Shown: one piece after another, positions 23,266 to 32,820 of the stretch
How the letters are laid out: each line of letters opens with the position of its first letter
How positions within the stretch are numbered: the first letter of the stretch is position 1
Source of the DNA: an uncultured Candidatus Nitrosopumilus sp.
Lineage (GTDB): Archaea; Thermoproteota; Nitrososphaeria; Nitrososphaerales; Nitrosopumilaceae
Direction: 5' to 3'
Length of the DNA stretch: 32,820 bases
Assembly: GCA_905612275.1 (NCBI GenBank)
Contig: CAJQRM010000003.1
Coordinates: 41,305-74,124 of the forward strand
The notes under the pieces: generated by a model
What the model was told of the DNA's origin: nothing
Database searches by the model: none
The model's input: only the letters and a program-made list of their open reading frames with translations
Translations under genes and position numbers: made by a program

Positions 23266-24984
23266 ATGGATTTATCGGAATTAATTTTCTTTTCAATAAT
23301 ATTCTCTATTGGATTATTTGGTACTGCTTACGCACAAGAGCCTATTCAAGAAATTGTAGAAATTAACCAAAATTCTTACAATCCTGGCTGTGAATTAATT
23401 GATTCCTGTTTTAATCCCACAATTTTACATATTGATAAGGGTGATTCTATAAAATGGATCAACAATGATGATGCATTACACAATATTGTCAGTGGTACAC
23501 CTGGAGATGGACCTAGTGATATTTTTACAAGTCCTCTTTTACAAAAGGGAGAATTCTTTGAATTTAATTTTGAATTAGATAATTCAGTACAATCCTATTT
23601 TTGTAGTATTCATCCATGGATGGTTGGTTATGTTATTGTAGGTGATGTTGAATTTGAAAAACCAATTTTGGAGAAAATAATTGATGAACCAATTATTTTT
23701 GATGATTTTAAATTTGAAAAATTTATTTCAGGATTATCTACTCCAATATCAATAACTTTTTTAGATGATACTCTTTTAATATTACAAAAAAATGATGGAA
23801 AGATTTTATCCTTTAAAGATGGGGAACTAAATACTGTTCTTGATCTTGAAGTTAGTAATTATGGTGAACAAGGATTGTTAGGAATTACAAATGTTGATTC
23901 TACAGTATATGTTTTTTTAACAGAAGCATTTCATGATGGAGGATTAGCATTAGGTAATAAAATATACAAATTTGAATGGAATGGAGAATTTTTAACACAA
24001 AAAAAATTACTTAAAGAATTACCTGCAGATGAAGTAACTTATAATGGTGGTGCAATGGTAAGTGATAATTCTGGAACTGTTTTTGCAGTAACAGGTGAAG
24101 ATTATAAAGCTGGAGTTTTACAAAATTATTTACCTGAAGATAGCTTTAGACATTTTAGTGAAGGTGCACGTTCTGATGAAAAAGTTAAAAGAGGAATTCA
24201 GGATAGCATAAAAGATACTATATCTTGCATTAATGTATCATTCAAATATTACACTACAAATCCTTCTGGTTGGGGAGAGAAGACTAAAGCTCAAGAAAAT
24301 AAACTTGAATCCAATCCATTAAACATTATTCAAAATATTGGTGAATGTGTTGAACGATTTTTCTTTAATGAGTTTTCATTTGGACATTGGAAAGATACAG
24401 GTGTGATACTTCAAATCGATCCTCCTGGTAGTTATGCTGCAATTGGAATTCGAAATAGTTTTGGATTAGCAGTTGATCCTATTACAGGTTATTTATGGGA
24501 TACAGAAAATGGGGCCGATAAATTTGATGAAATAAATTTGATAAATAAAAAATTCAACAGTGGATGGGCTAAAATTATGGGTCCTTCTGATGTAGTAATT
24601 GTTCCACCTCCTGGATATGAAGAATATGTATACGATGATCCAAAATTTAGCTGGGAACTACCAATAGGAATAACTGCATTGGATTTTGCTGATTCATCAA
24701 TGTTTCAAAAATATGAAAATTGGTTATTTGTGGCTGATTCCAACAATGGTAATATTTACAAATTTCAATTAAATGAAAATAGAACAGATTTTGTATTTGA
24801 AAGTGAACTCCTTCAGGATAAAGTTGTAAATCTATCACAAAAAGACTCTATTGAAAATGACTCGATGGAAGAAATTTTGTTTGGTTCAAATTTTGGTCTA
24901 ATATCTGATATTGAATTTGGTCCTGATGGTAGTCTTTATGTTGTCTCACTTGTAGATGGAACTATTTATAGAATTTATTCTTAA
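23266..24984 (+). CDS. Secreted cupredoxin - PQQ-type sugar dehydrogenase (GDH propeller) fusion
   Basis: A 572-residue exported protein. A signal peptide is visible at 1-23 (hydrophobic core, then AYA-QE cleavage site). Residues 30-126 form a plastocyanin-like domain with complete type-1 copper ligands: H72 in ALHNI, C113, H116 and M119 in YFCSIHPWM. Residues 145-572 match the soluble glucose/sorbosone dehydrogenase beta-propeller: FISGLSTPISITF at the start, EQGLLGI, then GIRNSFGLAVDP, DTENGADKFDEINL and NSGWAKIMGP. Such propellers oxidise sugars with PQQ, and the fused copper domain could pass on the electrons. Actual PQQ use is not proven by sequence. It is flanked by glycan genes on the other strand, and its last 23 bases overlap the convergent GT2 gene. 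Confidence 0.85.
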   Translation: MDLSELIFFSIIFSIGLFGTAYAQEPIQEIVEINQNSYNPGCELIDSCFNPTILHIDKGDSIKWINNDDALHNIVSGTPGDGPSDIFTSPLLQKGEFFEFNFELDNSVQSYFCSIHPWMVGYVIVGDVEFEKPILEKIIDEPIIFDDFKFEKFISGLSTPISITFLDDTLLILQKNDGKILSFKDGELNTVLDLEVSNYGEQGLLGITNVDSTVYVFLTEAFHDGGLALGNKIYKFEWNGEFLTQKKLLKELPADEVTYNGGAMVSDNSGTVFAVTGEDYKAGVLQNYLPEDSFRHFSEGARSDEKVKRGIQDSIKDTISCINVSFKYYTTNPSGWGEKTKAQENKLESNPLNIIQNIGECVERFFFNEFSFGHWKDTGVILQIDPPGSYAAIGIRNSFGLAVDPITGYLWDTENGADKFDEINLINKKFNSGWAKIMGPSDVVIVPPPGYEEYVYDDPKFSWELPIGITALDFADSSMFQKYENWLFVADSNNGNIYKFQLNENRTDFVFESELLQDKVVNLSQKDSIENDSMEEILFGSNFGLISDIEFGPDGSLYVVSLVDGTIYRIYS

Positions 24985-25594: not shown

Positions 25595-27247
25595 CTAAAT
25601 TTTTGAAAAATCAATTTCATTTAATCTTTGTACTCCAACAGCATAAAATGCTAGTTGCTTTTTAATATCTTCATTGTGCAATGGTATCATAGATATGAAT
25701 AACAAACCTTCTATCATCTTAATTTGTTCTAAATTCCAACTTTTTGAAATCCATAAATCAAAATCATTTGAAATTTTTTCATGTTGAGTTGGTTTTAATA
25801 TATTTATTTTTAATGAATTATCTTTCTGATCAATTGAGAATAACCCATTGTTAATCGAGTCGTATCCTCCCACAATTGAATGTCTTAATTTTGCCAAGTC
25901 ATACTTTATGTCCCCAAATATTGAATTTCCCCACTTTCCTCTAGGATCAATTATTCTATATTGATTATTTGGAATATCGTATAAAATATTTGAAAAGCAT
26001 AAATCCCCATGTATTAAACAATTATCATCTTTACAAAATAATTTATTTATTTTAGGAAAAACTTTCTCACTTAATTTGCCCCAATTATCATATAACTTTC
26101 CATTAATTTTTACATATTCATAATTAAACAATTTTTTAAATATTGGATTTGATGAAATTAATTCTTGCATTCTGTCTAGAGTTTTGGTAATATAGATTTG
26201 TTCATAATCCATTTTCTGTACTAATTTTTTATATGTTTGAAATGTATTTATGATATTTTTTAAATCATCTAATATGGACTGCCAATTTTTATAACTAATA
26301 TTTCCATAAAGCCAAATTTCAGTTAATGTTGAAAAATCAATATGTTCCATTACTAAATTAGGATTCTTGTTAATCTTTGAACTTATTATTCTTGGAGTCA
26401 TGATTTTTATTTCATTTGGAATTAAATTGTACCAGTTGATCTCATTTTTTAATTTCTGAATATTTTGACTTTTCTTTGTAACAATTCCATTTTTTTTATC
26501 TAATTCTAAATAATTAAAAAATCTACTTTGAAGTAATTCCTTCTTTGAACTGAAATAATTATTTCGATGTCCAACATCATACCAGTTTGGTTCTATTTTT
26601 ACTGTAATTTTATTAATTTTTTTATATTCTTCTAAAAGTGAGCTTATTTCTATTTTTTTATGATGCAGATATTTTTTTGAAATATTTTTTAATATTTTGA
26701 CACTAGAAAAAAAATATACACCTACTAATGCAGAAAAATTAATTCCTACACTCAATTCTTTTTTCTTATCATAAATTGATTTTATTTTCCCATTTTTTGT
26801 TTCAACGATACACCATTTACTACTATCTGAAAATTTTTTTGAAGATATAACAAAATCTTTCTGTTTATCTATGAATCTGAAATAATCCTTGTTGATTACT
26901 GTATCTCCAAGAACTACTAATAATTTATCTTCCTCAATCTTTTTCAAAGCTTTTATAATTGAATTTCCTGGAGATTTTTTCCAATCTATTTCAATAAAAT
27001 CAATTTTTAATTTATCATTATATCTATAGTTTAGAATTTTCATTAAATTATTTTTATTATATCCTACTGTTATTGCAATTTTATTATATCCATGACTAAT
27101 TAGATTGTCAATTGTATTGAAAATTACTGGCTTTCCATTAATGGGAATAAGGCCTGAAGAAATTTTTCCAAAAAATTTCTTCATTTCTTTTGGAATTTCC
27201 CCTCCAGATAAAATTAACACTTTAGTGTCATTCTTATTTTTTTCCAA
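25595..27247 (-). CDS. Nucleotidyltransferase - APH/choline-kinase-like fusion protein
   Basis: 550 residues, two domains. Residues 1-235 resemble sugar-phosphate nucleotidyltransferases: LILSGGE at the start, LGDTV with D115 as metal ligand, and NWYDVGH with D224. The usual G-x-G-x-R loop is altered, with no Arg. Residues 255-550 form an APH/choline-kinase fold with the catalytic HGDLCFSN (H413, D415, N420) and IDPRG (D434, metal). The kinase could phosphorylate a small molecule or sugar that the other half then activates with CTP or UTP, in the manner of LicA plus LicC for phosphocholine. The substrate is unknown. The start is TTG at 27247 with GAGG eight bases upstream; no ATG precedes the first motif. 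Its upstream neighbour is another fused nucleotidyltransferase. Confidence 0.78.
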   Translation of the reverse strand: MEKNKNDTKVLILSGGEIPKEMKKFFGKISSGLIPINGKPVIFNTIDNLISHGYNKIAITVGYNKNNLMKILNYRYNDKLKIDFIEIDWKKSPGNSIIKALKKIEEDKLLVVLGDTVINKDYFRFIDKQKDFVISSKKFSDSSKWCIVETKNGKIKSIYDKKKELSVGINFSALVGVYFFSSVKILKNISKKYLHHKKIEISSLLEEYKKINKITVKIEPNWYDVGHRNNYFSSKKELLQSRFFNYLELDKKNGIVTKKSQNIQKLKNEINWYNLIPNEIKIMTPRIISSKINKNPNLVMEHIDFSTLTEIWLYGNISYKNWQSILDDLKNIINTFQTYKKLVQKMDYEQIYITKTLDRMQELISSNPIFKKLFNYEYVKINGKLYDNWGKLSEKVFPKINKLFCKDDNCLIHGDLCFSNILYDIPNNQYRIIDPRGKWGNSIFGDIKYDLAKLRHSIVGGYDSINNGLFSIDQKDNSLKINILKPTQHEKISNDFDLWISKSWNLEQIKMIEGLLFISMIPLHNEDIKKQLAFYAVGVQRLNEIDFSKI

Positions 27248-27250
27248 TTT

Positions 27251-28327
27251 TTAAGCCTCAAATTTTTTTATGTCTTCTGGTGTTCCTAAAGCAACAAATT
27301 CATCTGCAACATCCACTGTAATTTTTTTTCCTTCTTTTATTAAAATATTATATAATTCTGAAATATAAAATTCATTTTTTATTAAAATATTTTTTTCTAT
27401 TGCATATTCTGCAGATTTTACAAAATCACTACCTTTAGAAAAAATATACATACCTGTAGATGCAAAATTTGAAATCACTTTTTTTTCTTTAGTTCTTATA
27501 ACCTTGTCATCATTATCTATTTCAACAAAACTATATTTTGGGTCTTTTGAATTAAAAATTCCTAAAATACCATCAATTTTTTGATTTCTCATTGACAATA
27601 ATCTTGATTTTAATCTAACTGATTTGAAATAAGTGTCGTTGTTAAAAATTAATAATGCTCTATCGTTATTAATTTCTTTTTTACAACTCAAAACAGTTTC
27701 TGCTTGACCTCTTGTATTCTTTGATAATAGTAGTATTTCGAATTTTATGTTGGAGAATTTTTCTTTCATAATTTTTTTAATAAATTCTTTTACTCTAAAA
27801 TTTTGTTCATCATTTTTTCTTATTATAAAAAATATTTTATGTGCAAAATCTAATGGTAAACTTTGAATTGCCCATTCTAATAATGTCTTATTTTTTGTTT
27901 CTATCATAAATTTTGGTTTATTGAACTTAGAATTTTTAAATCTTTTTCCTTCTCCACCCATTGGTATGATAAAATTTAATTTAATACCATTCATTTTTTC
28001 TTTTAATTTATCTGCAGAATCAAAAGATAATCCCAAATCATCAATATACATATCTGCATGTGGTTTTCCAAAAATTAATTCATCATATTTTACATTATTT
28101 GTTTTTAACCAATCTTTTGTAATTTTACCCACTTTTTTTATAACTTCATCAACATTACCATTACATGTACGCATATGTCTTCCTGTATGGATAATAATAT
28201 GATCTCCATTACTATGTAATTCATTTACTAGTTTTATAACATCTAATTTTGGCTTAACTTCTCCATATGACTCATTTGGTTTTTTTAATTCACAAATAAC
28301 CCCATCTAAATCAAAAACTATACGCAT
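27251..28327 (-). CDS. HAD phosphatase - nucleotidyltransferase fusion protein
   Basis: With the start at the ATG at 28327 the protein has 358 residues. Residues 1-110 are a HAD-type hydrolase: FDLDGVICE (D6 nucleophile, D8), HTGRHM (T48), K88 and YIDDLG (D96, D97). From about 117 a nucleotidyltransferase follows, with IPMGGEGKRF, the KPKFMI lysine, and NNDTYF as metal site. A GAGGG ribosome-binding site lies about eleven bases before the ATG. The frame is open for 47 further codons upstream but only with a TTG, so I reject the longer form. Such fusions suggest successive steps, dephosphorylation and NDP activation, on a sugar or polyol. The next gene starts three bases after its stop. Confidence 0.8.
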   Translation of the reverse strand: MRIVFDLDGVICELKKPNESYGEVKPKLDVIKLVNELHSNGDHIIIHTGRHMRTCNGNVDEVIKKVGKITKDWLKTNNVKYDELIFGKPHADMYIDDLGLSFDSADKLKEKMNGIKLNFIIPMGGEGKRFKNSKFNKPKFMIETKNKTLLEWAIQSLPLDFAHKIFFIIRKNDEQNFRVKEFIKKIMKEKFSNIKFEILLLSKNTRGQAETVLSCKKEINNDRALLIFNNDTYFKSVRLKSRLLSMRNQKIDGILGIFNSKDPKYSFVEIDNDDKVIRTKEKKVISNFASTGMYIFSKGSDFVKSAEYAIEKNILIKNEFYISELYNILIKEGKKITVDVADEFVALGTPEDIKKFEA

Positions 28328-28464
28328 ATCAGTAAATCCCTCTTCATGTTTTAAGAATTTTGTTGTGGATAGTTCTGAAGTAAAAAGCCTTGTTGGAGAA
28401 CCCCTAACCTGATTAAACAAGGAATCAATGAAATATCTAATTATTTTTAAATTAGGTATTTGAA

Positions 28465-29295
28465 TTAATTATTTTTCAAATATCTTTCAAATGAGGTAAA
28501 TTGAAAATTTGATAGTAAGTAATCCATTCTATCAACCACTTTATCCAAATTATGATATGTAATGAAATTATTTTTTACTGAAAGTTTAATTTTAGGCATA
28601 AATTCAGGAGTTAGTTCCCAAGAATGAATGTAAAATACTCCGGGGATATTTGCTTCATCATATGTTCTAAGTGCTTTTTTTGTTGTACTAAATGGCAATG
28701 TTCGTAAATAAAATCCACCTCCAACAGGAACTGTTTTTCCTAAAAATTTTGTTGTCATTAATGGGAATTCAATAATTTTTCCTTTTGGATTATCAGAATC
28801 TAACGAATTACTAGTTATTTTATAAGGTTTTTTTGGTGCATTTGGAGTTCCATATAGATTAGTTTTAGCTGGTACAATACTACTATCATAAACATAGCCA
28901 TGTTGTTCAAGAGTATCAATTGCCCATGAGGATTTTTCATTTAAAGAAAATGTAGGAGCACGAAATCCTTTACTTTTGTTGTTAGTGAGTATAGCAAAAT
29001 TATCTAATTCCTTCGAAAATTTTTCTTGAAAATTATTTGAATCTAATCTAGAATGATACATTGTATGAAATCCAATTTCATGACCATTTTCTAAAATTTT
29101 ATCTAAAATATCTGGAAATTTTTCAAGAATTTCTCCGACCATAAAAAAAGTAGCATATGTATCATGTTTTCTAAGAAGTTCTAAAATTTTATCAATACCT
29201 TTTACAACTTGAAAAGTTTTTTTTTCATTTTCTAATACTTTTTGGATCAATTCTGGGTGAAACCATTCTTCAAAATCTATTCCTAGTAAATTCAA
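28465..29295 (-). CDS. Polysaccharide deacetylase family protein (NodB domain)
   Basis: 276 residues with carbohydrate esterase 4 motifs: GIDFEEW at 5-11 (D7), the zinc motif H77-xxx-H81 in GFHTMYH, RAPTFS with the conserved Arg, YDSS, and FYIHSWEL near the end. The DFEEW start and YIHSWEL ending are typical of the subgroup found in exopolysaccharide loci (with the DUF3473-type end). These enzymes remove N-acetyl groups from sugar polymers or lipid-linked sugars. No signal peptide is visible. The start is TTG at 29295; a stop-free ATG alternative before the motif is not present. It follows the beta-helix acyltransferase by about 38 bases, so removal and replacement of an acyl group by the pair is plausible. 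Confidence 0.85.
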   Translation of the reverse strand: MNLLGIDFEEWFHPELIQKVLENEKKTFQVVKGIDKILELLRKHDTYATFFMVGEILEKFPDILDKILENGHEIGFHTMYHSRLDSNNFQEKFSKELDNFAILTNNKSKGFRAPTFSLNEKSSWAIDTLEQHGYVYDSSIVPAKTNLYGTPNAPKKPYKITSNSLDSDNPKGKIIEFPLMTTKFLGKTVPVGGGFYLRTLPFSTTKKALRTYDEANIPGVFYIHSWELTPEFMPKIKLSVKNNFITYHNLDKVVDRMDYLLSNFQFTSFERYLKNN

Positions 29296-29333: not shown

Positions 29334-29876
29334 TTATTTTTTTTCAAAATCAAGTTTTTTTATCACCCGTGCAGGATTTCCTAAAACAACACAATTGTCT
29401 GGTATATCTTCAAAAACTGCACTACCTATTGAAACAATTGCATTTTTGCCAATTGTAATACCTGCAGTAATTATTGCTCCAGGATTAATTACAGCTCCAG
29501 ATTTTATTGTAACTTTACCAACTTTTCGTGGATAATGTGTTTTTTTTAAAATTAAATTTGCAGTTGGATTAATGTGTGCAAAAATCATAGCATTTGAACC
29601 TATTGTAACATTATCTTCAATTTCTATTAATTCAGGATATACTAAATCTATCAACACATATGGTGAGATATGACAATTTTTTCCAATTTTTACACCTCTA
29701 GATTTTTGTAGATTAATTACAAAATTTGACAATGGTGATGAATATGCCCATTTATGTAGGATCCATGAGCGCAACATTTTGATTTTTAGTTTAATTTTCC
29801 CAAATTCCCCTTCAAATCCGTAAAATTCCATTACTTCGTGCTCATTAATTGAGAAAACGTCTTCAGATTTTTCCAT
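29334..29876 (-). CDS. Left-handed beta-helix (hexapeptide-repeat) acyltransferase
   Basis: 180 residues. From about residue 64 the sequence has hexapeptide repeats of the [LIV]-G-x4 type: VKIGKNCHISPYVLI, IEIEDNVTIGSNAMI, VTIKSGAVINPGAII and ITIGKNAIVSIGS. It closes with the NCVVLGNPARVIKK motif of the LbetaH acetyltransferases. H100 in IFAHINPT could be the catalytic base. Members transfer acetyl from acetyl-CoA, and some (LpxA, LpxD) transfer acyl from acyl-ACP. Because the gene is divergent from an ACP-forming operon starting at 29996, it is a candidate for the enzyme that uses the ACP-bound group. The evidence for that is position only. Confidence 0.85.
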   Translation of the reverse strand: MEKSEDVFSINEHEVMEFYGFEGEFGKIKLKIKMLRSWILHKWAYSSPLSNFVINLQKSRGVKIGKNCHISPYVLIDLVYPELIEIEDNVTIGSNAMIFAHINPTANLILKKTHYPRKVGKVTIKSGAVINPGAIITAGITIGKNAIVSIGSAVFEDIPDNCVVLGNPARVIKKLDFEKK

Positions 29877-29995: not shown

Positions 29996-31750
29996 ATGGA
30001 CAACGAAGAATCACTATCAAAATATATTTTAGATTCAGAAAAATTAGAAATAAATAATTTTAATAAAAAAATTAAAGTGGCTTTTTTATCTAGTTTTACA
30101 ATTAATGGATTATCTGAATCATTAAAAGTTAAATGTTCAAAAAAACAAATTTCATGTAATCCCTATGTTGCTGGTTATAATCAATATAATCAAGAAATTT
30201 TAGATAAAAAAAGTGGACTATATTCTTTTTCACCTGATATTACATTCTTAATTTTAGATACAAGGAGTATTTTTGGTGATTTATTTCATTTTCCTTATTC
30301 AGTAACAAAATCAGAAAGAGAAAATTTTGTAAATCAAAAAATTACTGAAATAATTAATTTAATTACTAAATTTAATGAAACTAGTGATTCTAAATTAGTA
30401 ATAACAAATTTATCATTACCTCATTATTCACCACATGGAATTGCAGAAACAAAAACCAATTACAGTTTTCATGATGCAATTATAGACTTTAATAAAAAAT
30501 TAAAAGAAAAATTACTTAATATTAATTCTGCATATGTATTTGATTTTTTTAAATTTATTATTAAACATGGTGAAAATAATGTATTTAATTTCCAAAATTA
30601 TCTTTTTGGTGATATTAAAATTTCACTTGACTATATTCCATATTTAGCAAATGAATTTATGCCTTACATTATATCATTTTTGGGTTTAACAAAAAAATGC
30701 ATTGTTGTAGATTTGGATAACACTCTTTGGGGAGGTATTGTAGGTGAAGATGGATTTGATGGTATACGTTTAGGTCCCCAACCTCCTGGAAATGCATTTG
30801 TAGAATTTCAAAAATATCTAAAAGCTTTATCACAGAGGGGAATATTACTTGCAATCAATAGTAAAAATAATTTTGATGATGCAATTCAAGTTATTCGTGA
30901 ACATCCTTTTATGATTTTAACAGAAAGTGATTTTTCTTGTATCAAAATAAATTGGAATAATAAAGCATCAAATATGCAAGAGATTTCTAAGGAATTGAAT
31001 ATTGGATTAGATAGTTTTGTTTTTTTTGATGATGATCCCATTAATAGAGAATTGATTAGAGAAAGTATGCCTGAAATAACTACTCCTGAACTTCCTCATG
31101 ATCCATCACTTTACTCTGAAGTAATTCAATCATTACATGACTTTAGTACTTTTCAAATTACTTCTGAAGATACTAATCGTGGACAAATGTATTTAGAGCA
31201 AAAACAAAGAACTGAATCCCAAAATTCTATATCTGATATTTCTGAATTCTTAAAAAAACTAAATTTAGAAATAGAGATTAAAAAAACAAATAGTTTTACA
31301 ATTCCTAGAATATCTCAACTAACTTTGAAAACAAATCAATTTAATCTAACAACAAAAAGATATCATGAGGATCAAATTAAAAAATTTTCAGAAGATAAAA
31401 ATATTTTGATTGGTTGTGCACAGATTAGAGATAAATTTGGTGATAATGGAATTACAGGTGTTTTCATTGTTGAAAAAACTAATTATGATGAATGGTTCTT
31501 AGATACTTTTCTTTTAAGTTGTAGAGTGATGGGACGCGAAGCTGAAAAAGCAATTTTATATTTTATTCTTAATGAAGCAAAAAATAATAACATAAAAAGA
31601 TTGAAAGCAAAATTTATTCCTACAAAAAAAAATAAACCTATTGAAAATTTTCTTCCTGATTGTCAATTTTATGAAAAAGATGGTGTTTGGATTTATAATT
31701 TAGATAAACCTTTCAATATGCCTGACTTTTTAACATTGAGTGAAGAATAA
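29996..31750 (+). CDS. FkbH-like HAD-IIIC family protein (acyl loading onto ACP)
   Basis: 584 residues from the ATG at 29996; a TTG directly before it would add one residue. There are three regions. Residues 25-230 resemble the SGNH-like N-terminal part of FkbH proteins. Residues 233-370 form a HAD domain with VVDLDNTLWGGIVGEDG (D239, D241), INSKNN and FFDDDPINREL. Residues 400-570 resemble a GNAT fold, with LTLKTNQFNLTTKRY and SCRVMGREAE. FkbH-type proteins of polyketide pathways take the glyceryl group from 1,3-bisphosphoglycerate and load it onto an acyl carrier protein. The next gene, overlapping by one base, is an ACP, which supports that role here. Whether glycerate or another acid is loaded is unknown. 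Confidence 0.88.
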   Translation: MDNEESLSKYILDSEKLEINNFNKKIKVAFLSSFTINGLSESLKVKCSKKQISCNPYVAGYNQYNQEILDKKSGLYSFSPDITFLILDTRSIFGDLFHFPYSVTKSERENFVNQKITEIINLITKFNETSDSKLVITNLSLPHYSPHGIAETKTNYSFHDAIIDFNKKLKEKLLNINSAYVFDFFKFIIKHGENNVFNFQNYLFGDIKISLDYIPYLANEFMPYIISFLGLTKKCIVVDLDNTLWGGIVGEDGFDGIRLGPQPPGNAFVEFQKYLKALSQRGILLAINSKNNFDDAIQVIREHPFMILTESDFSCIKINWNNKASNMQEISKELNIGLDSFVFFDDDPINRELIRESMPEITTPELPHDPSLYSEVIQSLHDFSTFQITSEDTNRGQMYLEQKQRTESQNSISDISEFLKKLNLEIEIKKTNSFTIPRISQLTLKTNQFNLTTKRYHEDQIKKFSEDKNILIGCAQIRDKFGDNGITGVFIVEKTNYDEWFLDTFLLSCRVMGREAEKAILYFILNEAKNNNIKRLKAKFIPTKKNKPIENFLPDCQFYEKDGVWIYNLDKPFNMPDFLTLSEE

Positions 31751-31989
31751 TGTCTGAAAAATTATTTAAAATTATTTCAAAAGTAATGAATGTAAATTAT
31801 GAAAATATAACCGATGAATCTAATCCTTCAACAATTCCTTCTTGGACTTCCTTTAATGGATATGTACTTTTGTATGAATTAGAATCAAATTTTAATGTAA
31901 AATTTTCTATAGATGAAGCAATGGATGTAAAAAATATTGCAGACATTAAACGTCACTTAAAAAATCATGGTGTAAATCTAAATGACTAA
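31750..31989 (+). CDS. Acyl carrier protein
   Basis: 79 residues, the normal ACP size, with an acidic four-helix pattern. The phosphopantetheine site is S34 in IPSWTSFNGYVLLYELE. It aligns with the WDSLNHLNLI-type helix II of carrier proteins from FkbH clusters, but the usual Asp-Ser-Leu is Thr-Ser-Phe. The second half (VKFSIDEAMDVKNIADIKRHL) fits the family ending of helices III and IV. The start overlaps the FkbH stop as TAATG and its stop overlaps the MaoC gene by eight bases, so stoichiometric, coupled translation is likely. With a holo-ACP synthase two genes downstream, it should carry the acyl group made or modified by FkbH and MaoC. Confidence 0.85.
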   Translation: MSEKLFKIISKVMNVNYENITDESNPSTIPSWTSFNGYVLLYELESNFNVKFSIDEAMDVKNIADIKRHLKNHGVNLND

Positions 31990-32407
31990 TTCTTTAAATG
32001 ACTATTCTTATGATGATATTTTTATTGGTCAAAAAGAAAGTTTTATGATAAAAATTACTGAGTCAATGGTTCAAACATTTGGTAATTTCTCTGGAGATTT
32101 AAATCCATTACATATGGATACTAAATTTGCAGAATCTAGTTCATTTAAAAAAAGAATAGTTCATGGTATGCTTTTATCCACATTTTTTTCACAATTAGTT
32201 GGAATGCATCTACCTGGGAAAAATGCTTTATATTTTTCTCAAACATTGAATTTTCGTTCCCCATGTTATATTGATGATGAAATTGAAGTAGTTGGTGAAG
32301 TAACTGAAAAAAGTGATTCCACAAAAATGATAACAGTTACTACATCAATTTTTAATAAATCAAAAATTTGCTTAATTGATGGTGTTGCTAAAATCATTGT
32401 CAGATAG
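31982..32407 (+). CDS. MaoC-like (R)-hydratase/dehydratase
   Basis: A single hot-dog domain of 141 residues. The hydratase-2 catalytic motif is clear: FSGDLNPLHMDTKFAESSSF followed by RIVHGML, with the Asp and His of the D-x4-H dyad and the conserved GML helix. LNFRSPCYIDDEIEV is the typical next strand. Such enzymes add or remove water at the 2,3 position of acyl-CoA or acyl-ACP. Position between the ACP and holo-ACP-synthase genes, with overlaps on the upstream side, suggests an ACP-bound substrate here. It would act on a 3-hydroxyacyl or 2-enoyl group, which implies that chain-extending or reducing partners are encoded elsewhere, perhaps just past the window. Confidence 0.88.
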   Translation: MTNSLNDYSYDDIFIGQKESFMIKITESMVQTFGNFSGDLNPLHMDTKFAESSSFKKRIVHGMLLSTFFSQLVGMHLPGKNALYFSQTLNFRSPCYIDDEIEVVGEVTEKSDSTKMITVTTSIFNKSKICLIDGVAKIIVR

Positions 32408-32414
32408 TAATAAT

Positions 32415-32768
32415 ATGATTGAAAAACTGGGAGTTGGAATTGATATTACTGATATAACTGATTTTAAAATAACTCCATATCAAAAAAAACCTGGATTTTA
32501 TCAATCAATTTTTCAATCATCTGAAATTGATTATTGTTTGAAATTTCAAGATTCTTCATCCCATTTTGCTGGAAAATTTGCTTTAAAGGAAGCTGTAAAA
32601 AAATCAATTAATGATGATATCTATATTTCTAAAATAGAAACTTTTCATGTTAACTCAAAACCAATGATAAAATTATTAGATTCTGAAAAAAATTATGTTT
32701 TTCGTGCTAGTATTAGTCATGAGGGAAATTATGCTATAGCAATTGTTATTTCTGAATTAATTAATTAA
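32415..32768 (+). CDS. Holo-ACP synthase (AcpS-type 4'-phosphopantetheinyl transferase)
   Basis: 117 residues, close to bacterial AcpS (about 120). Metal and CoA-binding residues are conserved: LGVGIDITDI with D10 and FAGKFALKEAVKK with E59 and K63. The C-terminus ASISHEGNYAIAIVI is the standard AcpS ending. It transfers phosphopantetheine from CoA to the serine of the ACP encoded upstream. I choose the ATG at 32415, eight bases after the MaoC stop. An upstream ATG at 32376 would add 13 residues that do not resemble AcpS and overlap MaoC. A dedicated activator within the operon makes this a self-contained carrier-protein module. Confidence 0.88.
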   Translation: MIEKLGVGIDITDITDFKITPYQKKPGFYQSIFQSSEIDYCLKFQDSSSHFAGKFALKEAVKKSINDDIYISKIETFHVNSKPMIKLLDSEKNYVFRASISHEGNYAIAIVISELIN

Positions 32769-32820
32769 TTTTTCTTTTTGCTTTAATACTTAATTTTTCT
32801 AAAATTGAATTAAAAATTTT
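32761..32820 (-). CDS. Possible 3' end of a convergent gene running out of the window
   Basis: On the minus strand a frame is open from the window edge to a TAA at 32761, encoding FNSILEKLSIKAKRKIN. This is a plausible basic C-terminus, and its end would overlap the AcpS gene by eight bases. Only 19 codons are visible, so it may be chance in AT-rich sequence. Confidence 0.3.
   Translation of the reverse strand, partial: KIFNSILEKLSIKAKRKIN

Follow-up and report, generated by a model that had tools for sequence, protein, structure and literature searches.

Introduction

The carrier proteins that serve fatty-acid synthesis in bacteria are generally absent from ammonia-oxidising archaea. In bacteria, FkbH and an acyl carrier protein (ACP) form part of the glycerate-utilisation operons (PMC7489565), and the ACP GmACP3 of Geobacter metallireducens is given a putative role in lipopolysaccharide synthesis by the title of a paper cited in PMC4847154. 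ACP and its activation are reported to be missing from most archaea and, where present, to have been acquired from bacteria by transfer (PMC3533463). The surface of these archaea is glycosylated in at least one case: in Nitrosopumilus maritimus each S-layer subunit was seen to bear 17 glycans, none of them chemically identified (PMC11153153).

The DNA analysed here (the window) is a stretch of 32,820 nucleotides from an uncultured Candidatus Nitrosopumilus sp. It forms the final part of a contig of 74 kb, which stops at window position 32820, in an assembly that is 54% complete. A first-pass annotation had described overlapping or abutting genes for FkbH, ACP, MaoC and AcpS at 29996-32768, and their positions, strand and families were confirmed. 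These genes and their neighbours are:

28465-29295, minus strand: polysaccharide deacetylase, NodB/CE4-like with DUF3473 (PF01522 58 bits, PF11959 116 bits)
29334-29876, minus strand: hexapeptide (left-handed beta-helix) acyltransferase, PF00132, divergent from FkbH; proposed to transfer acyl from ACP to sugar
29996-31750, plus strand: FkbH, ATG at 29996; FkbH_N domain, HAD phosphatase and C-terminal GNAT-like domain; predicted ACP loader
31750-31989, plus strand: ACP, 79 aa, TAATG overlap with FkbH; predicted pantetheinylation at Ser34 in W-T-S-F
31982-32407, plus strand: MaoC-type (R)-specific enoyl hydratase/dehydratase, 8-base overlap with ACP; exchangeable tailoring slot
32415-32768, plus strand: AcpS-type holo-ACP synthase, ATG at 32415, stop at 32766-32768, 7-base gap after MaoC; predicted ACP activator
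32761-32820, minus strand: C-terminus of a GT2 glycosyltransferase, encoded convergently and truncated where the contig stops

The analysis below indicates that all but the last of them probably belong to a cassette dedicated to the ACP-dependent acylation of a cell-surface sugar.

Results and discussion

The FkbH protein scored 300 bits against TIGR01686 (cut-off 146.65) and 55 bits against PF21211, and its structural model was similar to 3slr and to GNATs; the HAD DxD motif and the GNAT-like C-terminus of the family are both present. Residues D239xD241, S289, K323, D345-D346 and S508-C509-R510 were invariant, and the catalytic residues were unchanged even when compared with seven bacterial FkbH proteins.

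The small protein that follows is, judged by its sequence, a divergent ACP. It fell below all curated ACP cut-offs, giving no Pfam match and 23.8 bits against the NCBIfam model (cut-off 66, E 3.8e-05); many of its kin in other genomes exceed the PF00550 cut-off. The serine of the DSL-like motif was conserved in 14 of 14 aligned rows, and the aspartate before it is replaced by threonine (TSF) in the window protein and two of its kin. The best solved relative was 2lml, which we take to be a Geobacter ACP, with an E value of only 5e-4.

AcpS scored 43.3 bits against PF01648 (cut-off 25), with the active-site G-I-D and F-A-L-K-E-A motifs conserved, and was short of the TIGR00516 equivalog cut-off (45 against 59.8). 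It is the sole PF01648 match in the window's own partial assembly. MaoC scored 75.4 bits against PF01575 (cut-off 27), including the Asp/His hydratase motif; a GDxNPxHxD-like motif was present in all full-length kin and the best PDB match was PhaJ (1iq6, E 1.7e-25). Compared with the locus in a sister species, dN/dS was 0.17 for FkbH, 0.12 for ACP, 0.17 for MaoC and 0.27 for AcpS. This purifying selection shows that all four are real, maintained genes.

Linkage was examined in 38 loci with a full-length FkbH, the window excluded; 29 of these had adequate flanks, of 3 kb or more to either side. The cassette was first defined using archaeal FkbH loci found by searching the genus and the phylum, and additional loci, obtained by another search, then served as a replication. 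ACP was close to FkbH in all 38, at 11 bases or less in all but G070, where MaoC and a short-chain dehydrogenase/reductase (SDR) lie between. AcpS was within 6 kb of FkbH in 28 of the 29 full-flank loci. The genes are thus not scattered in relatives, which the first-pass annotation had named as a refuting outcome, and its proposal that an archaeal glycan locus holds a load-carry-modify-activate module is supported.

The module had also been called self-contained. This is not supported, because the neighbouring acyltransferase (28/29 full-flank loci within 6 kb) and deacetylase (26/29) are conserved about as well as AcpS; both belong to the cassette, which extends upstream of 29996. The locus of G009 has neither nearby.

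AcpS goes with the module: all nine FkbH-bearing genomes of the genus sample were among the 13 in which AcpS was present. In the phylum sample AcpS was found in 16 of 17 FkbH genomes (p 7e-17), and the seventeenth, G228, has AcpS on inspection. About two dozen other genomes of that sample (families f18, f20, f22, f24, f25, f42, f43, f71) encode AcpS-type proteins but gave no full match to FkbH. A scan of genome contigs gave one relative only, and the cassette is missing from most of the genus. Two copies, in G045 and G502, have apparently decayed. Broken-up, apparently decaying cassettes were seen at L046:7833-11252 and L111:178-1934, where assembly errors are possible; these suggest that the cassette is perhaps dispensable in some species.

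The hexapeptide acyltransferase was modelled by AlphaFold with a pLDDT of 94, and its His101 was invariant in 22 sequences. Foldseek neighbours of the model were galactoside and maltose O-acetyltransferases and AntD, a hexapeptide sugar N-acyltransferase for a dTDP-amino sugar. As these nearest structures use acetyl-CoA, it is the linkage to the cassette that points to use of ACP by this enzyme.

MaoC proved to be exchangeable. Across the 38 loci MaoC was present in 24, a PF13669 VOC protein (Glyoxalase_4, glyoxalase-fold) in 11, neither in three and both in none; the zero overlap would have a chance of 3e-7 under independence of the loci, an assumption that does not hold. The 11 include three f27 loci in which VOC does not directly follow ACP but adjoins the deacetylase, at a distance of about 1.5-1.6 kb from FkbH. 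An extra FabG-like SDR was found in the cassettes of G070 and G191. Fourteen of the 38 loci thus do without MaoC, 11 of them with VOC in its place, so it is not essential to the module.

The loader can be exchanged too. No FkbH was found in four species (G052, G059, G017 and G047), where an AMP-binding acyl ligase stands in for it alongside ACP and AcpS; in G017 the ligase is a contig-end fragment. G052 and G059 also hold a hexapeptide acyltransferase 63-64% identical to that of the window. The variant cassettes (AcpS, ACP, ligase) are:

L047:9840-12463: with acyltransferase
L048:9875-12510: with acyltransferase
L050:9707-11827
L049:2-796: ligase fragment

Taken with the MaoC/VOC/SDR slot, these swaps indicate that carrier, activator and transferase are constant while the loader and the tailoring enzyme vary. 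As a separate observation, G120, in which the FkbH cassette is present, encodes at L052:5493-10369 a 1357-aa NRPS-like protein (AMP-binding, PP-binding and hexapeptide regions) followed by a 268-aa PPTase.

Chain-extending partners had been suggested to lie just beyond 32820. The window's final 60 bases are instead the end of a convergent GT2 gene: their translation, KIFNSILEKLSIKAKRKIN followed by a stop, matches the GT2 end of the sister species, ...LFNSILEKLSKKTKASIFQKN and stop. In 23 cassette genomes, most of them near-complete, there was no full ketosynthase and no ACP_syn_III (KAS III) match above cut-off. Matches to PF00109 in these genomes were partial, covering only about 47-97 of the model's 252 positions; most lay in ORFs of 369-416 aa, and they were read as thiolase-like. 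Chain extension is therefore not supported, the next gene being a glycosyltransferase and no ketosynthase having been found in the 23 genomes.

Genes beyond GT2 in the sister species are RmlA, RmlB and FdtA, and in many Nitrosopumilaceae NDP-sugar genes of these types and GT2 adjoin the cassette; of the 38 loci, 22 have RmlA within 6 kb and 22 have GT2. A DegT aminotransferase is nearby in many. The f27 genomes G165 and G500 have an STT3/AglB oligosaccharyltransferase gene beside the cassette, and in the f9 genome G120 topA, the cassette and an STT3 homologue share one neighbourhood. One report counts against a glycan role: a Nitrosopumilus species that was examined had no apparent N-glycosylation (PMC12153357).

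A single fixed acceptor sugar was considered and dropped. FdtA, RmlA and RmlB are common neighbours, but the set in G087 is of the rhamnose type, and the acceptor is therefore likely to vary. Synthesis of a 3-amino sugar was not established either: for the aminotransferase near the g31 cassette, the closest matches are ArnB/perosamine-type enzymes, and no solved relative of the FdtA-like protein was found.

In two species, G696 and G690, an MBOAT and an SGNH-like protein are inserted in the cassette:

L146:8006-10693: MBOAT/SGNH-like insertion, with a second ACP (G696)
L150:4381-6787: MBOAT/SGNH-like insertion

The SGNH-like membrane protein has an N-terminal hydrophobic stretch and no Pfam match, its motif being read by eye. 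The pair presumably resembles an acyl export branch of the Dlt or Alg type.

Further proteins in the window may be mentioned. Two apparent fusions, read by eye, lie beside the cassette at window positions 25595-28420, one of a nucleotidyltransferase with a kinase-like C-terminus and the other of HAD with nucleotidyltransferase; similar neighbours recur in L136, L137 and L150. At 23266-24984 is a 572-aa protein with, by eye, a cupredoxin-like N-terminus and a sugar-dehydrogenase-like beta-propeller.

The likeliest use of the cassette would be decoration of a surface glycan with an ACP-bound short hydroxyacid. AcpS would attach phosphopantetheine to Ser34 of ACP. By analogy with family members, FkbH would accept a three-carbon acid in phosphorylated and activated form, 1,3-bisphosphoglycerate being the likeliest, from which the HAD domain would take off the phosphate; the acyl group would probably be kept on Cys509 and then handed to ACP to form glyceryl-ACP or a hydroxyacyl-ACP close to it. 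Other acids may be used by some loaders of the FkbH type, and the chances that the loaded unit is glyceryl appear evenly balanced. MaoC here, and VOC or the added FabG-like SDR elsewhere, would change the short acyl group without lengthening it. For MaoC this may be dehydration towards a pyruvyl or enol unit, or hydration of an enoyl unit; dehydration is chemically awkward on glyceryl-ACP since the product would be an enol-pyruvyl unit. The hexapeptide acyltransferase would then shift the acyl group to a nucleotide- or lipid-linked sugar, at an amine or a hydroxyl group, and the deacetylase may expose the amine beforehand.

A different source for the acyl group is unlikely overall but is the alternative that best survives. 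ACP would carry (R)-3-hydroxybutyryl or 3-hydroxypropionyl, formed as MaoC hydrates the crotonyl or acryloyl thioesters of the 3HP/4HB carbon-fixation cycle. FkbH would act on a hydroxyacid that is phosphorylated, and the acyl group would then be N-linked to an amino sugar. The closeness of MaoC to PhaJ, an (R)-specific enoyl-CoA hydratase, agrees with this, as do AntD among the structural neighbours of the acyltransferase and the DegT and FdtA/RmlA/RmlB genes near many loci. However, no enzyme was identified for transfer of acyl from CoA to ACP, and MaoC is not the acyl source in the 14 of 38 loci in which it is replaced or absent while FkbH stays.

It is improbable that the genes make a stand-alone secondary metabolite, such as a small tetronate- or lactone-like molecule or an ACP-made signal, in place of a glycan decoration. 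FkbH with ACP in the bacterial glycerate-utilisation operons (PMC7489565) provides a precedent, but KAS III was lacking above cut-off in the 23 genomes, and glycosyltransferases, NDP-sugar enzymes and the deacetylase are often alongside, with AglB in two families. A short-chain polyketide or fatty-acid-like pathway with its ketosynthase beyond the contig end would account for MaoC, for the FabG-like SDR of G070 and G191 and for the occurrence of FkbH-ACP in bacterial polyketide-type clusters, but with only partial PF00109 matches and no ACP_syn_III above cut-off in the 23 genomes, and GT2 as the next gene, it is very improbable indeed.

The age of the cassette was considered using a tree of FkbH. 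The archaeal proteins group apart from the seven bacterial plasmid ones, and the order f27, f9, Nitrosopumilaceae is the order of kinship (support for the f9 fork 87/81). The tree and the shared synteny favour an old cassette with many losses. The bacterial comparison consisted of plasmid records only, a thin sampling that makes it a weak test of origin, and repeated transfer may be the alternative. Tentatively, and with somewhat more doubt than belief, the cassette can be seen as an old, mostly vertical archaeal ACP system that is unrelated to fatty acids, was in place before several families of the phylum diverged and adds a small hydroxyacid to S-layer N-glycans; its carrier, activator and acyltransferase would be constant, and its loader (FkbH or an AMP-ligase) and tailoring enzyme (MaoC or a VOC protein) exchangeable.

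Comparison with known systems

The conserved ACP/AcpS pair in several families and an FkbH tree that follows kinship challenge, for this lineage, the view that archaeal ACPs are bacterial acquisitions (PMC3533463). The cassette would be a case of ACP apparently functioning without fatty-acid synthesis, and it offers a testable way into the glycan coat of abundant ammonia oxidisers.

The closest described systems are the bacterial FkbH-ACP operons that load glyceryl units, for methoxymalonyl-ACP or in glycerate utilisation and tetronate formation. The invariant FkbH residues are common to both, a stand-alone ACP is adjacent in both and the first step is expected to be the same. The archaeal cassette differs in that it has no KAS III or PKS but encodes an AcpS of its own and a hexapeptide acyltransferase of the sugar type; no counterpart of the KAS III-like (FabH-like) partner of the glycerate-utilisation operons was found in the 23 genomes.

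Bacterial plasmid loci of Rhodobacteraceae SC52, Sinorhizobium pSymB and Paroceanicella also contain ACP, FkbH and a PF13669 VOC protein, with MBOAT in two of them and a hexapeptide acyltransferase in SC52. They differ in that no linked AcpS or deacetylase is annotated, and their FkbH proteins are about 29-36% identical to that of the window. Among the specialised ACPs of bacterial surface-glycan clusters, GmACP3 offers a parallel through 2lml, the solved ACP closest to that of the window at its modest E value; the GmACP3 system is bacterial.

Nod factor is made with the deacetylase NodB, the ACP NodF and the acyltransferase NodA. The archaeal cassette follows a similar logic, with a NodB-superfamily deacetylase beside putative ACP-dependent acyl transfer, as an analogy of working only; here the acyltransferase has a hexapeptide fold and the acyl group would be short.

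No paper was found in the literature searched that ties FkbH to O-antigen, or usefully to archaea. The kinds of enzyme are known from bacteria, and what is new, as far as the literature searched shows, is their assembly into an archaeal cassette with its own AcpS, the swapping of its parts and its apparent age.
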